From: Aquificota bacterium
Lineage (GTDB): Bacteria > Aquificota > Aquificia > Aquificales > Aquificaceae
Length of the DNA: 64,000 nucleotides
Direction of reading: 5' to 3'
NCBI GenBank assembly: GCA_018771605.1
Contig: CP076324.1
Coordinates: 1-64,000, forward strand
The first letter of the stretch is position 1, and every line of letters begins with the position of its first letter. Shown here piece by piece: positions 12,970-21,768 of the stretch. The position numbers and the translations under genes are program-made. The notes under the pieces were generated by a model, which was not told where the DNA came from, did no database searches, and saw only the letters and a list, made by a program, of their open reading frames with translations.

Positions 12970-13980
12970 ATGGAAGCCTTGGCTTGGCTAAGCGAAGAAA
13001 AGGAGGAAAAGGTCCTATGTAAGGCCTGCAGTCAGAGGTGTGTTTTGGGTGAGGGTGAGTATGGGAAGTGTGGTGTGAGGGTAAACAGGGGAGGAAAGCT
13101 TTACCTTACCGTATATGGCCTTGTTTCCGCCATAAACATAGACCCCATAGAGAAAAAGCCCCTCTATCACTTCCTTCCTGGCACCTATAGTCTCTCTATT
13201 GGCACGGTGGGTTGCAACTTCTCCTGCCAGTTTTGTCAAAACTGGGAGATCTCCCAATATCCTCAGAATAATAACTATAAAGTCTTTGGAGAGCCTATAA
13301 GCCCTCAGGAGCTTGTAAGACTGGCCCAGCTTTACAAAACACCCTCCATCTCTTACACCTACAATGAGCCTATCATATTCTTTGAGTTTGCCTTTGATGT
13401 GATGAAGCTTGCAAAGGAGAATGGCATAAGAAATGTCTTTGTAACCAGCGGTTATGAGACAGAAGAGGCCATAGACATAGCCCTTCCATACCTTGACGCC
13501 ATGAACATAGACCTAAAATCCTTTTCCGATGAGTTTTATAGAAAGGTGTGCGGAGCAAGGCTAAAGCCTGTATTGAAGATCATTGAGTATGCTTTCAAAA
13601 AAGGCATATGGATAGAGATAACCACACTTCTCATACCGGGCTATAACGACTCTGAGGAGGAAATAAAGGAAATAGCCCGATTTATAGCAAGCCTATCAAG
13701 GGATATACCATGGCACATATCCCGCTTCTTCCCAGCCTATAAGATGGCAGACCTTATGCCCACACCCATAGAAAAGCTAAAAAGGGCCTATGAGATAGGA
13801 AGGGAAGAGGGCCTAAACTTTGTCTATGTGGGCAACTACTGGCAAGAGGACCTTGAATCTACCTACTGTCCAAACTGTGGTAAAAAGGTGATAGAGAGAA
13901 TAGGCTACAGGACAAAGAACCACCTTAAAGAAGGCTCGTGTCCCCACTGTGGCTATAGGTTGCCCGGTGTGTGGGTATGA
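12970..13980 (+). CDS. amrS: AmmeMemoRadiSam system radical SAM enzyme
   Basis: 336 residues. The N-terminal cysteine cluster (C17, C20, C24, C34: VLCKACSQRC, YGKCGVR) precedes the radical SAM motif CNFSCQFC (C82, C86, C89). This order is typical of the PflA-like AmrS family. SYTYNEPIIFFEF and NIDLKSFSDEFY are also characteristic. A C-terminal rubredoxin-like pair, CPNCG and CPHCG, follows. It would bind a 4Fe-4S cluster and S-adenosylmethionine; the substrate is unknown. A longer frame begins at 12643, but that extension lies antisense to MEMO. The start follows a -10 box by 9 nt. The stop lies 1 bp from the 3' end of the tRNA. Confidence 0.9.
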   Translation: MEALAWLSEEKEEKVLCKACSQRCVLGEGEYGKCGVRVNRGGKLYLTVYGLVSAINIDPIEKKPLYHFLPGTYSLSIGTVGCNFSCQFCQNWEISQYPQNNNYKVFGEPISPQELVRLAQLYKTPSISYTYNEPIIFFEFAFDVMKLAKENGIRNVFVTSGYETEEAIDIALPYLDAMNIDLKSFSDEFYRKVCGARLKPVLKIIEYAFKKGIWIEITTLLIPGYNDSEEEIKEIARFIASLSRDIPWHISRFFPAYKMADLMPTPIEKLKRAYEIGREEGLNFVYVGNYWQEDLESTYCPNCGKKVIERIGYRTKNHLKEGSCPHCGYRLPGVWV

Positions 13981-13981
13981 T

Positions 13982-14055
13982 CGTGTCCGGGGGGACTCGA
14001 ACCCCCGACCTTGGGTTCCGGAGACCCACGCTCTATCCAGCTGAGCTACGGACAC
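13982..14055 (-). tRNA. tRNA-Arg (anticodon CCG)
   Basis: A 74-nt cloverleaf on the minus strand. Acceptor GTGTCCG/CGGACAC pairs fully. The D arm is GCTC-AGCTGGATA-GAGC, the anticodon stem is TGGGT/ACCCA with loop CTCCGGA (anticodon CCG), and the T arm is GGGGG-TTCGAGT-CCCCC. The discriminator is G. CCA is not encoded and must be added. It decodes CGG. It is divergent from murC, with 23 bp between them. Confidence 0.96.
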
Positions 14056-17551: not shown

Positions 17552-17576
17552 AAAAATTAAAAGGGGCAGAAGCCCC
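17551..17576 (-). terminator. Intrinsic terminator of the oxidoreductase operon
   Basis: On the minus strand GGGGC-TTCT-GCCCC is followed by TTTTAATTTTTTC. The 5-bp all-G/C stem plus T-rich tail lies directly after the stop of the gamma subunit (17579). Confidence 0.8.
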
Positions 17577-17578
17577 GA

Positions 17579-18292
17579 TTAAACTGCCACCTTTTTAGGA
17601 GGTGGTGGTAAGAAGGGCTCTAAGCCTTGCTCTTGGGCCCATTTTTGGGCAAGCTCATAGGCAGCCTTTGCCGTGTTAAGGTTCTTTTCTATAAGCTCAA
17701 GCTTTTTCTTAAACTTTCTTTCCAAGGCGGAGTCCAGAGAGGCCGTTCCACCGGAGGCCACAAACTTCTTTAAGAACCTTGACTTTATACCCTCTTCTAT
17801 GGCTTCTATTCCTACTGCACCTATGCTACCAAAGAGGGCTCCTATCATTGCCATGTTGGTAGAAAGCTCTGTGCCTGCTATGTCTATGGCGAACTTAGTG
17901 GCTGGGAAGTTAAATACCTTAACCTCAAGCTCTTCAAGCCTTTCTCTATCTTCTTCTGTAAGAAGGTCCTCTTCCGTGTTTATGATAATAAGGCCCTTTC
18001 TCTTTATGCCAGAGTAGAAGGGCATGGTGTAGGACTTGCCCATGGTGATAACCTGTGGATGGAAGACCATTATCACATCTGGATAGACAACCTCACCTCT
18101 GTCGTATATGGGCTCCACACCTATACGGGCGTAGCTTTCTGCTGGTGCCATCCTCTTTTCCGCTCCAAAGAAGGGGTTAGAGACGGCGTAATAGCCTTCA
18201 TAGTCTGCAGCGGTAGCTATTATGTGGGCTGCAGTGACCGCACCCTGCCCACCAAGGGCTGGCATACGTATATTGACCCTTTTTCTTATCAT
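17579..18292 (-). CDS. porG: 2-oxoacid:ferredoxin oxidoreductase, gamma subunit
   Basis: 237 residues, with the gamma-domain start RMPALGGQGAVTAAHIIA and the following NPFFGAEKRMAPAESY. It has a long extra C-terminal helix and a proline-rich end (FLPPPPKK). With alpha and beta it forms the catalytic core that reductively carboxylates acetyl-CoA to pyruvate (or succinyl-CoA to 2-oxoglutarate) with reduced ferredoxin. Last gene of the operon, overlapping beta by 4 bp; a terminator follows. Which 2-oxoacid is used cannot be decided from sequence alone. Confidence 0.88.
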   Translation of the reverse strand: MIRKRVNIRMPALGGQGAVTAAHIIATAADYEGYYAVSNPFFGAEKRMAPAESYARIGVEPIYDRGEVVYPDVIMVFHPQVITMGKSYTMPFYSGIKRKGLIIINTEEDLLTEEDRERLEELEVKVFNFPATKFAIDIAGTELSTNMAMIGALFGSIGAVGIEAIEEGIKSRFLKKFVASGGTASLDSALERKFKKKLELIEKNLNTAKAAYELAQKWAQEQGLEPFLPPPPKKVAV

Positions 18293-19149
18293 AGTAAGCC
18301 CTCCTCTTTTTTGCGCTCAATGACCTCCTTTGCTGCATCCGTCATATACTCAAAGAAGGCAAACCTTTCCTTATCCCTCTGCCTCATCTCATCAAGGCCA
18401 TCATCGGAGTTAAGGCCTATTTCAAGTATGCAAGGAGTATAAAGATGCACGTAGGTTGGTCCCACCTCTCTTGCCACATATATGGCCTTCTTTATTACCG
18501 TTTCTACCCTTTTGGGAGAAGACACAGTCAGCCTTGCCACATAGTGGCAGCCAGAGTCTATGGCAAGTTGCCACATGGGAACTTTGTCCCATTGTTTACC
18601 TTTTGGAGCCATCTTAAAAACGTGGCCCTTTACGGTCATACCACTTTCCTGACCGCCCGTGTTGGCATAGACCTCGTTGTCAAAGCAGATGGTTGTAATC
18701 TTTTCTTGCCTAAAGAAGGATTGAAGGGTGCAATCCAAACCTATATCAACGGTGGCACCGTCTCCTGCAAGCACCACCACATCCTTTACCTTGTCCGGAA
18801 ATCTCCACTCAAGGACCCTTTTTATGCCAGAGGCTACCGCATTCTGGTTTCCAAAGAGGGAGTGAACTGTGTGAAGGGCTATGTGAGGAAAGACCAAAGA
18901 GGTACATCCCGTAGAGTTTACTATTATGGTGTCCTCTGGATTTGGCAAAGAGGCAAGAATATACCTCAAAGCCATAGATTCTGGACATCCCGCACAAAGT
19001 GAGTGCTCTTCTATGAGCTCCTTGGAGTAAGGGAGGTCCATAACTCCCCTTTTGGGATTGCCCCATGTGGCCTTAAACTGGAGGTCCTTAATTTCTTGGG
19101 GCATCACATCCAAAAATTCCTCGTTTATTTCGTAAATCTTATATGACAT
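18289..19149 (-). CDS. porB: 2-oxoacid:ferredoxin oxidoreductase, beta (TPP-binding) subunit
   Basis: 286 residues. LCAGCPESMALRYIL holds two of the cluster cysteines of beta subunits. The thiamine diphosphate motif spans LAGDGATVDIGLDCT to FDNEVYANTGGQES, with the GDG start and a conserved Asn. GHVFKMAPKGKQW and VPMWQLAIDSGCHYVAR also fit the family. It catalyses decarboxylation or carboxylation at TPP, with nearby 4Fe-4S electron transfer. Overlaps alpha by 11 bp and gamma by 4 bp, so the three are translated together. Confidence 0.9.
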   Translation of the reverse strand: MSYKIYEINEEFLDVMPQEIKDLQFKATWGNPKRGVMDLPYSKELIEEHSLCAGCPESMALRYILASLPNPEDTIIVNSTGCTSLVFPHIALHTVHSLFGNQNAVASGIKRVLEWRFPDKVKDVVVLAGDGATVDIGLDCTLQSFFRQEKITTICFDNEVYANTGGQESGMTVKGHVFKMAPKGKQWDKVPMWQLAIDSGCHYVARLTVSSPKRVETVIKKAIYVAREVGPTYVHLYTPCILEIGLNSDDGLDEMRQRDKERFAFFEYMTDAAKEVIERKKEEGLL

Positions 19150-20347
19150 GTTTTACCTCCTTTCCAGTTAGTTTGAGAACTTCTTTTACTATCACTTCCG
19201 CTGGCATGGTCATACCACCTGCAACCCTTGGAGAACCTATTATCTCCGCATCAGAATGCCCGTAGAGATACCTTCTTACCTCTCTCTCAAGCCAGCCAAC
19301 CACGTTAAACTCTGGAACGAATATATACTTGGCACCCTTTACGGCCTGCCTTAGTTCTTCTATGGGGAAGGGCCTTATGGTCTTTAGTTTAACCACCCTT
19401 GCCTTTACTCCTTCATCCTCAAGAAGCCTTACCGCCTCCTTTGACTGCGCTGCCGCAGTACCGCATGCCACAAATACGATGTCTGCCTCTGGGTCCCCAA
19501 ACTCCTCCGTGAGGCCTCTCAAGTAGTGTTTCGCAAAAGGCCTTGACCTTTCAATGGCAGCCCTTACCTCCCATTGCCAGCTGGCATGAGTGGCGTAGGA
19601 TATATAGTTAGACTTCATTACAAAGGGGTCTCTTAAAAACCTTCCCGGTGGTACTTCCGCATCTATAACTGGCATGGGAGCCCTGTAAGGATTGTATGGT
19701 GGGAGAGCTATATCGTCTGGAGGAAGCATTATGGCTTCCCTTGTGTGAGATACAAAGAAGCCGTCAACGGCTGTTATAATTGGCACATGCACGGAAGGCT
19801 GTTCTGCCACTACAAAGCCTGCCAGTATCATGTCAAAGAGGTCTTGAGCGTTTTCCGCATACCATATCATACAACCTGTATCAAGGAGAAAGCCTACCTC
19901 AAGGTTATCTGGCTGTATAGAAAGGGGAGCATTTACACCTCTTGCCATAAGGACCAGCTGAACTGGTATTCTTGTACCGGCCCACATGGGAAAGTTTTCA
20001 AAGGCTCTTAGGGTACCAGGTCCAGAGGTGGTTGTTATGGTCCTTGCGCCAGCCAAGGCACAGCCTGCCACTTCGGACATAACACCAAACTCCGACTCGC
20101 CTCTAAAGTAAACGCCTACATAACCTTCAACCCATAACTCGCCTATAAGGTGTGCAGCTTCTGACTGTGGAGTAATTGGGTATGAAACGGATGCGTCCAC
20201 AGAGGCCCTCTTTACCGCCTCTTTAACCGCCTCTGAACCTGTCATAAAGTGTTTTGTCCTTGGTGCTTCAAAAAGCAGATAATCTGGCGAAACTACTCTT
20301 TGCCCTGCCCTGTTGTATATTATGCCTTGCTCCTTAACTGTTTGCAT
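19139..20347 (-). CDS. porA: 2-oxoacid:ferredoxin oxidoreductase, alpha subunit
   Basis: 402 residues with the pyrimidine-binding domain: HFMTGSEAVKEAVKRA, SYPITPQSEAAHLIGE, FRGESEFGVMSEVAGCALAGART and TTTSGPGTLRAFEN. The C-terminal transketolase-like domain has IVFVACGTAA and KLKTIRPFP. Preceded by a clear AAGGAGGTA Shine-Dalgarno. A 66-bp gap separates it from the Uma2 gene upstream, the largest in the operon; no hairpin terminator is visible there. It is expected in the reductive TCA cycle. Confidence 0.92.
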   Translation of the reverse strand: MQTVKEQGIIYNRAGQRVVSPDYLLFEAPRTKHFMTGSEAVKEAVKRASVDASVSYPITPQSEAAHLIGELWVEGYVGVYFRGESEFGVMSEVAGCALAGARTITTTSGPGTLRAFENFPMWAGTRIPVQLVLMARGVNAPLSIQPDNLEVGFLLDTGCMIWYAENAQDLFDMILAGFVVAEQPSVHVPIITAVDGFFVSHTREAIMLPPDDIALPPYNPYRAPMPVIDAEVPPGRFLRDPFVMKSNYISYATHASWQWEVRAAIERSRPFAKHYLRGLTEEFGDPEADIVFVACGTAAAQSKEAVRLLEDEGVKARVVKLKTIRPFPIEELRQAVKGAKYIFVPEFNVVGWLEREVRRYLYGHSDAEIIGSPRVAGGMTMPAEVIVKEVLKLTGKEVKHVI

Positions 20348-20413
20348 AGCTACCTCCTTGCAGGATTTTTAAATAAGATGTGAAAAATACTATAAAAAAC
20401 AAGCTGAGAAAGG

Positions 20414-20953
20414 TCATAGGAAAACCTCCTCAAGCTCTATGCAAAGACCTTCCAAAATCTTAGAACATACCTTGCCCTTTTCAAAGGCGTAGGAAACAAC
20501 CTCATACACACCATTTTTTAACTCCAAGACCTCAATGCCCCTTTCCTCTGGAAAGACAAGCCAAAACTCTTTAATGCCAAACTGGGCGTATATCCTTCTT
20601 TTGTCTTCTGTATCCTTTTTAAAGGTGCTTGGAGATACCACTTCCACCACAAGGTCTGGAGCTCCAAATATGCCTTTATCTTTGACTATATCAAGCCTAT
20701 CCTTTGATATGAAAACTATATCTGGCTGGACCACCACATCCTCAGCAAGGATAACATCCACGGGAGAGAGATAAAAATCTCCAAGGCCTTTTTCCTCTTG
20801 ATAAACCATAAAAAAGCGGGAAAGCTTCCAAATGATTTTTTGATGTACAGTACTAGGTGCGGGCATTTCTATAAGCTCCCCTTCCAAAACCTCATACCTT
20901 TTGTCTTCTTCAAGGTTCAGGTAGTCTTGGTAGGTAAAGAGTGTGGCCTTCAT
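20414..20953 (-). CDS. Uma2 family (DUF820) PD-(D/E)XK nuclease-like protein
   Basis: 179 residues. N-terminal LFTYQDYLNLEEDKRYEVLEGE and MPAPSTVHQ, then the nuclease core VVQPDIVFIS and APDLVVEVVSPST. The Asp and Glu residues match the PD-(D/E)XK metal site of Uma2 proteins. This family is abundant in cyanobacteria and thermophiles and mostly uncharacterised. It sits inside the oxidoreductase operon, its ATG overlapping the stop of the epsilon gene as ATGA, between E and A. That position suggests insertion into the operon, or at least coexpression. No link to the enzyme is known. Confidence 0.85.
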   Translation of the reverse strand: MKATLFTYQDYLNLEEDKRYEVLEGELIEMPAPSTVHQKIIWKLSRFFMVYQEEKGLGDFYLSPVDVILAEDVVVQPDIVFISKDRLDIVKDKGIFGAPDLVVEVVSPSTFKKDTEDKRRIYAQFGIKEFWLVFPEERGIEVLELKNGVYEVVSYAFEKGKVCSKILEGLCIELEEVFL

Positions 20954-21519
20954 TTCCCCAGCTCTTTCTTTACCTCTTGGGCTATTTTTATAAACCTTTC
21001 AAGCTCTTCTAAATGCTGGTCTCTCAAGGTTATCATGGCATCTTCATGCCCGTCCATACCACACATAGCTATGGTAAAGCAATCCGTTTCTGCCCTTATT
21101 ATCTTGAGGGCTACATTGGCATAGTGGCAATGAACTCCTATGAATATACAGGCTTTTATGTTGTTATGCCAAATGGTTAGGTTTGGATGGTTAGGGTTTA
21201 TTTCAACAGCTGGGTTTATCTTTGGATACTTGGGCCTGTAGTCATACATGGGAATAATCTTTGCATCAAGAACTTCTGCCATCTTTTTAACTAGTCTTGC
21301 TTTTTCTTTTGCCTCCTCGTTCCATGCATAAAGCACCTGAGGTCCTGGGAATATAGTGGGGTTTTCTCTTATTAGCATAGCCTTTGCGGCCTCTCTCATA
21401 GCTATTTCTTCATCAACCACTTCATTGAAAAGAAGTGCCTTTCCTGGTGGCGGGTTCAAAACACCTTCGTAAACTGCCACAGGATAAGGTGAAAAACCGC
21501 TTGGTCCTAAGGTTGCCAT
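20950..21519 (-). CDS. porE: 2-oxoacid:ferredoxin oxidoreductase, epsilon-type accessory subunit
   Basis: 189 residues. Starts GPSGFSPYPVAVYEGV, then GPQVLYAWNEEAK, IWHNNIKACIFIGVHCHYAN and FTIAMCGMDGHEDAMITL. This resembles the Rossmann-like CO-dehydrogenase epsilon/beta fold described as an extra subunit in five-subunit 2-oxoacid:ferredoxin oxidoreductases of Hydrogenobacter. Its exact role in the complex is not known. Good Shine-Dalgarno (GGAGGTAAGGC). Assignment rests on operon context plus overall appearance. Confidence 0.7.
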   Translation of the reverse strand: MATLGPSGFSPYPVAVYEGVLNPPPGKALLFNEVVDEEIAMREAAKAMLIRENPTIFPGPQVLYAWNEEAKEKARLVKKMAEVLDAKIIPMYDYRPKYPKINPAVEINPNHPNLTIWHNNIKACIFIGVHCHYANVALKIIRAETDCFTIAMCGMDGHEDAMITLRDQHLEELERFIKIAQEVKKELGK

Positions 21520-21537: not shown

Positions 21538-21768
21538 TTATCTTTCTGCATGTACTTCGGGCATTACCATGTGTATGGCGTTTCTTTTTAAGAGGTTCAC
21601 GCATACATAAACACACAAGGCACAGCCCTTACACCTATCTTGGACAACGTATGCATGATGTTCCTCATCTGTGTACATGAGGGTGTTGGGCTCTGGGCAG
21701 AAAAGGGTACACTGCTTACAATTATACTTGGTGCATTCCTCGTTTATGACCTCCGCCACATAGTACAT
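21538..21768 (-). CDS. porD: 2-oxoacid:ferredoxin oxidoreductase, delta (2x4Fe-4S ferredoxin) subunit
   Basis: 76 residues with two cluster motifs: CTKYNCKQCTLFCP (Cx4Cx2Cx3CP) and CKGCALCVYVC (Cx2Cx2Cx3C). The usual Pro after the last cysteine of the second motif is Val. It would pass electrons between the catalytic core and free ferredoxin. First gene of the operon. Here the order is D-E-A-B-G, unlike the E-D-A-B-G or D-A-B-G-E orders I recall from Hydrogenobacter thermophilus. Confidence 0.88.
   Translation of the reverse strand: MYYVAEVINEECTKYNCKQCTLFCPEPNTLMYTDEEHHAYVVQDRCKGCALCVYVCVNLLKRNAIHMVMPEVHAER

Follow-up and report, generated by a model that had tools for sequence, protein, structure and literature searches.

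Feder and Bujnicki proposed in 2005 that the Uma2 family (COG4636/DUF820, PF05685) spreads selfishly, in a homing-like manner, and found no preferred gene neighborhood for its members (PMC551604). The catalytic lysine of these proteins has been described as migrated (PMC551604), and their genes, like those examined here, occur as cassettes of paralogs (PMC551604, PMC2701414). The literature that we searched reports nuclease activity for no member of the family. Members have also been noted in operons for redox enzymes: sll1222, a DUF820 gene in the hoxEFUYH operon of Synechocystis, was interpreted as toxin-antitoxin associated (PMC4963859), and the Uma2 homolog aq_1194, in the pyruvate:ferredoxin oxidoreductase (PFOR) cluster of Aquifex aeolicus, was reported in 2023 as a single puzzling ORF (PMC10052474).

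Here we describe a Uma2 gene that shares both operon and junction with aq_1194, in a 64,000-nt stretch (the window) of the genome of an Aquificaceae bacterium (G000). Whereas aq_1194 was described as a single ORF, the window gene belongs to a set that extends through the genus and whose members change slots, form tandem copies and are lost. In contrast to the family picture of 2005, the slots of this set are fixed, coupled junctions of core operons, and its members exchange a central module. sll1222 is likewise a Uma2-family gene within a redox-enzyme operon, but in another lineage.

A first-pass annotation, made from the sequence alone, had placed the gene within a 2-oxoacid:ferredoxin oxidoreductase operon, with its ATG overlapping the stop of the preceding subunit gene as ATGA and the alpha gene downstream. 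The overlap and the alpha gene, which follows beyond a leader, are both where it put them (Table 1). The operon assignment also stands, and the operon most likely encodes PFOR: the gene order (ferredoxin, CO_dh-like, alpha, beta, gamma) agrees with the PFOR cluster of A. aeolicus, and a paralogous operon with a different order (delta-alpha-beta-gamma-epsilon) lies elsewhere in the genome, at 532 kb (L088). The subunit name needs correction, as the CO_dh-like protein that had been called epsilon is delta in the Aquifex nomenclature, in which epsilon is the ferredoxin (PMC10052474). Terminator-like sites are absent from the junctions between the CO_dh-like, Uma2 and alpha genes on their strand, the first good one lying 3' of gamma, and we saw neither a promoter nor a terminator belonging to the window Uma2 gene itself.

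Table 1. Features of the por operon and its Uma2 gene, in window coordinates
Feature	Position	Strand	Remark
Small 2x[4Fe-4S] ferredoxin subunit gene	21538..21768	-	first gene of the operon
CO_dh-like subunit gene (PF02552, 1.3e-56)	20950..21519	-	epsilon in the first-pass annotation; delta in Aquifex nomenclature
ATGA overlap	20950..20953	-	stop of CO_dh-like gene overlapping Uma2 start
Uma2 (PF05685/COG4636) gene, predicted PD-(D/E)XK nuclease	20414..20953	-	179 aa, ATG start, TGA stop
Central module, codons 37-95	20669..20845	-	exchanged between paralogs in relatives
Catalytic Asp78 codon	20720..20722	-	D78 invariant in 45 diverse copies
Catalytic Glu104 codon	20642..20644	-	E104 invariant in 45 diverse copies
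Migrated catalytic Lys118 codon	20600..20602	-	K118 in 105/105 Aquificales copies
Uma2 3' end CTTGAGGAGGTTTTCCTATGA, ending in ATGA	20414..20434	-	Shine-Dalgarno-like GAGGAGGT within C-terminal codons
Leader of alpha gene	20348..20413	-	66 nt, own strong Shine-Dalgarno (aaggaggt)
PFOR alpha subunit gene (POR_N, 6.2e-64)	19139..20347	-	profile match
PFOR beta subunit gene	18289..19149	-	follows alpha
PFOR gamma subunit gene	17579..18292	-	follows beta
Terminator-like hairpin	17563..17576	-	ends the operon

ATGA coupling is common in the window, where 10 of the 68 neighboring ORF pairs overlap by exactly 4 nt and 48 run in the same direction with no more than 35 nt between them; we therefore rejected coupling by itself as evidence. 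Elsewhere in the window, the long ORF reading that uses a GTG start, at 13971 ahead of murC, passes antisense through a tRNA-Arg (CCG) gene (13982-14055, minus strand), and the true murC start is therefore further in.

The identification as a Uma2 nuclease-like gene proved sound: the ORF is intact and matches the Uma2 profile with E=5.9e-34 (117.5 bits against a cut-off of 27; Pfam profile search). Modeled by alignment-based prediction (pLDDT 93.8; single-sequence prediction gave 40), the window protein is predicted to have the PD-(D/E)XK fold of the known Uma2 structures, with TM-scores of 0.95 to 6okh (38% identical), 0.80 to 3ot2, 0.79 to 1wdj and 0.78 to 9y1l, and it shares with them the D, the E and the migrated Lys. 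Beyond the catalytic residues D78, E104 and K118, P99, S107 and W131 are invariant among 45 diverse Uma2 copies. The first-pass annotation had singled out conservation of the DxE residues as informative, and 104 of the 105 Aquificales copies retain D, E and K together. The sole copy without the catalytic D and E, in por slot B of the draft genome G001 (L086:126-572), has lost ~35 codons spanning them in frame while retaining the frame and both ends, which could be an assembly error.

Between matched Aquificales copies, omega ranges from 0.07 to 0.23, indicating purifying selection at about 0.1, and comparison of the window gene with its nearest complete relative gives about 0.16. Because the catalytic residues are kept, omega is low and the predicted structure matches known Uma2 structures, we conclude that the activity of the window gene is itself what maintains it and that no decay is under way; its product presumably cuts DNA. 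That the gene is an inert, decaying leftover of a mobile element is scarcely credible: some slots do hold scars only, and the G001 copy lacks the catalytic D and E codons, but the window gene has its full length and every catalytic residue, and the selection test largely refutes the idea.

We compared the por junctions across related Aquificales (some represented by draft genomes), labeling the junction that precedes the CO_dh-like gene slot A and the one that follows it slot B. Of the 13 same-genus genomes that yielded the locus, 11 have Uma2 in slot A, slot B or both, and a slot holds at most two copies in tandem. Among the remaining genomes of the family it occupies por slots in two of nine, namely Aquifex G016, which from its gene order we take to be A. 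aeolicus VF5, and G021, from one further genus; two further Aquificota MAGs from a named collection (L234 and L238) carry it in slot B. In nine related genomes (G004, G008, G014, G015, G018, G019, G022, G023 and G024) the por operon is intact and contains no Uma2 gene. G002 carries the closest ortholog of the window gene (77% over residues 1-103); it lies in slot B and is split by a contig end. Far from being absent from all relatives and decaying, the gene is thus mostly present within its genus, catalytically intact and under purifying selection, and the recurrence of Uma2 genes at these two por junctions in most relatives is beyond chance. The trait needs five changes on the PFOR-subunit tree, and in the Uma2 tree the por-slot copies form one group except for a single long-branch row. 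Since the empty slot B of G004 keeps the apparent last codons of a Uma2 gene, absence there is probably a loss.

The retention of a position between subunit genes in several genera, together with relatives in other redox operons, might suggest that the protein has PFOR or the PFOR mRNA as its target and serves as an assembly factor, a regulator or a redox-linked nuclease. We regard this as very improbable, given the nine genomes with intact operons and no Uma2, the presence of the same family in the purH, hemB, argG, serA and tpx operons, and the absence of the Aquifex homolog from the PFOR activity band (PMC10052474). On the same grounds, the new role in the enzyme that the first-pass annotation had raised is not upheld. 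A place as a PFOR subunit or accessory protein was also rejected, as the gene is not found wherever the enzyme is.

The same annotation had alternatively suggested a cargo insertion tolerated by a highly expressed operon, and this comes near to the reading that we find best supported, with members of the one family in many unrelated operons. Besides the por junctions, Uma2 genes fill about 15 other fixed core-operon junctions as one to five coupled tandem copies. Near relatives of G000 carry up to about 26 Uma2 genes per genome, distributed over a common set of junctions: in the molybdopterin operon, at three junctions in two nuo operons, and beside serA, tpx, purH-moaD, hemB, argG and suhB; a sucCD slot was found in a more distant genus. 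Most copies at these slots overlap their neighbors by 1-34 nt. In a quick tree the copies group by slot (31 changes versus 79.7 when shuffled), although slots nonetheless mix. We found no obvious target motif common to the slots and identified no cut site in them.

The window genome itself has just two Uma2 genes. The second (C1:457750-458268; L087:5730-6281) is ATGA-coupled in a molybdopterin oxidoreductase operon, between the genes for the catalytic and iron-sulfur subunits, with a small CZB-domain gene next. The 4.5-kb block that contains it is 93% identical between G000 and G010; because their por operons are only 80% identical, this suggests that the molybdopterin/Uma2 block was transferred laterally.

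More distant Uma2 genes occur in other phyla: a Sumerlaeota MAG has one flanked by mvhD and a hydrogenase subunit gene, in Clostridia tpiA and gpmI are the flanking genes, and in Brocadia-type Planctomycetota the gene lies 3' of atpC. In the last group (L277, L281, L283, L285 and L287), the gene follows an apparent atpC and precedes a sugar-nucleotide dehydratase-like gene. WOR-3 MAGs (L244, L248, L249, L254 and L255) carry long tandem arrays of up to six copies, which usually overlap by 4 or 14 nt and are about 50-55% identical to the window protein.

The ends of these genes would leave their downstream neighbors translatable. In many slots the ribosome site of the next gene is encoded by the last Uma2 codons: the nuo1 slot gene ends in ...TGGAGGTAG, that of the serA/tpx slot in ...TTTGGAGG..TGATG, and the last copy of the molybdopterin arrays in ...AAGGAGGTATAA. 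The Shine-Dalgarno sequences at Uma2 starts are weaker (mean -6.3 versus -10.6 to -12.9 kcal/mol for por genes), in line with a protein that was hardly detected in Aquifex (PMC10052474). Similarity between copies from different slots ends at or near the ends of the ORF, and no repeats were found flanking the window gene; an insertion sequence or transposon is not supported on these grounds.

Junctions in por and elsewhere are seen empty, filled and scarred, which amounts to presence/absence polymorphism at a fixed site. G007 retains a 31-codon remnant at nuo1 with its coupled start and ribosome-site end, G005 an N-terminal remnant at nuo2, and G006 two C-terminal ends at tpx, where its sister G013 holds five copies. 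One alternative is a solo toxin or addiction gene, a toxic nuclease that would be costly to lose because it is coupled to an essential operon and would so stabilize itself or the operon. Against it stand the clean losses and scars, which are frequent in healthy lineages, and the nine related por operons without Uma2. A toxin has been proposed both for the Uma2 family (PMC2701414) and for the DUF820 gene of the Synechocystis hox operon (PMC4963859), but in the por operon enzyme subunits stand on both sides with no antitoxin candidate adjoining, and we consider this explanation improbable. A type II toxin-antitoxin pair is likewise not supported at this operon, where no antitoxin adjoins the gene.

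Comparison of paralogs revealed exchange within the gene. In mosaic pairs, codons about 1-36 and 96-179 are near-identical and codons 37-95 differ strongly, and these borders recur in slot groups independent of one another (por, molybdopterin, serA/tpx, purH and hemB/suhB). According to predicted secondary structure, the exchanged module spans the core helix, the first strands and the catalytic D78. Between slots A and B of G012, for example, the C-terminal part is 97% identical in nucleotide sequence and the center 46%. The center was less similar than the flanks in 90 of 95 within-genome pairs, and fourfold sites show the same contrast (0.49 for the center versus 0.61 for the flanks). Between the sisters G006 and G013, several orthologous centers match their flanks in similarity or exceed them. 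The center type of the window gene occurs in slot B in G000 and G002 and in slot A in G006 and G013.

For the G012 pair, the flanks form a clade with support of 98/94 that the center rejects (p-AU 0.013, an optimistic value because the pair was picked after its mosaic was noticed). Because the center tree of five porA genes from G003, G006 and G013 did not significantly reject one clade (p-AU 0.155), the G012 pair is the strongest single test, alongside the pooled comparison. The WOR-3 arrays show the same divergent-center contrast. Specificity genes of type I restriction systems (hsdS) also have constant ends and exchanged recognition segments; unlike these, the exchanged part of Uma2 lies inside the nuclease core, and no methyltransferase accompanies it. 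We infer that the central module sets target specificity. A related observation comes from an evolved strain of T. saccharolyticum, in which a single Uma2 gene, Tsac_2318, carries twenty linked variants (PMC6997586); these may reflect gene conversion between paralogs or read mis-mapping.

Together, these results lead us to favor, by a modest measure, the view that the window gene is a selfish or semi-selfish nuclease passenger, one of a family at translation-coupled core-operon junctions of Aquificaceae. The simplest account is a nuclease that rides on host transcription and reinitiation and multiplies by recombination. Termination-reinitiation at ATGA would sustain a low level of Uma2 synthesis, and the downstream host genes would stay translatable through a ribosome site of their own, as for alpha here, or one encoded by the end of the Uma2 ORF. 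Copies would multiply in tandem, move or convert between slots, swap the central module and be deleted, and recombination induced by cutting at cognate junctions or paralogs may drive their spread, much as in homing. Recurrent slots, ORF-limited homology, mosaicism, scars, the retained D/E/K and low omega all speak for the passenger. Free-standing homing endonucleases resemble it in being nuclease ORFs between conserved genes, with presence/absence polymorphism and ORF-limited homology, but Uma2 shows tandem arrays and middle-module exchange. Homing endonucleases do not usually occur as tandem arrays, and this counts against the passenger, as do the failure to identify a cut site or an obvious shared target motif at the slots, the abundance of such junctions in compact genomes and the fact that lasting purifying selection is also expected of a useful host gene.

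The main rival of a selfish passenger is an antiviral role, in which these nucleases would serve the host at low constant expression, with the swappable center setting the target and phages or plasmids selecting for diversity. Fast changes in copy number, tandem arrays, the shuffled module, conserved catalytic residues and low omega would all fit, and the window protein matches the PADLOC candidate-defense profile PDC-S03 (1.2e-39). That profile is itself a prediction, however, and we found no paper naming it; nor do partner methyltransferases or defense genes stand next to the slots, whose neighbors are metabolic. We therefore hold host defense to be possible but rather unlikely. Type II restriction-modification is not supported: no cognate methyltransferase stands beside the slots, where the neighbors are PFOR or metabolic genes.

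Within the Aquificaceae, and with the WOR-3 arrays, the genes might also be described, tentatively, as a distributed, recombining nuclease repertoire with constant ends and an interchangeable specificity module. Parked at translation-coupled junctions of essential operons, such a repertoire would be expressed by the host, costly to delete imprecisely and harmless to downstream translation, in many slots by virtue of a ribosome site that the C-terminus of the copy itself encodes. The proposed selfishness of the family (2005) and aq_1194 (2023) were already known; in the literature searched, neither fixed slots nor coupling-neutral ends nor a swapped module turned up.

The pattern accounts for the ORF left unassigned in the Aquifex PFOR cluster, and it cautions against inferring what such genes do from the operon in which they lie. 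Uma2 is a large bacterial family, and its fixed slots, coupling-neutral ends and exchangeable center give testable handles on what it does: which junctions are cut, whether the center sets the target, and whether these genes act for themselves or for their host.
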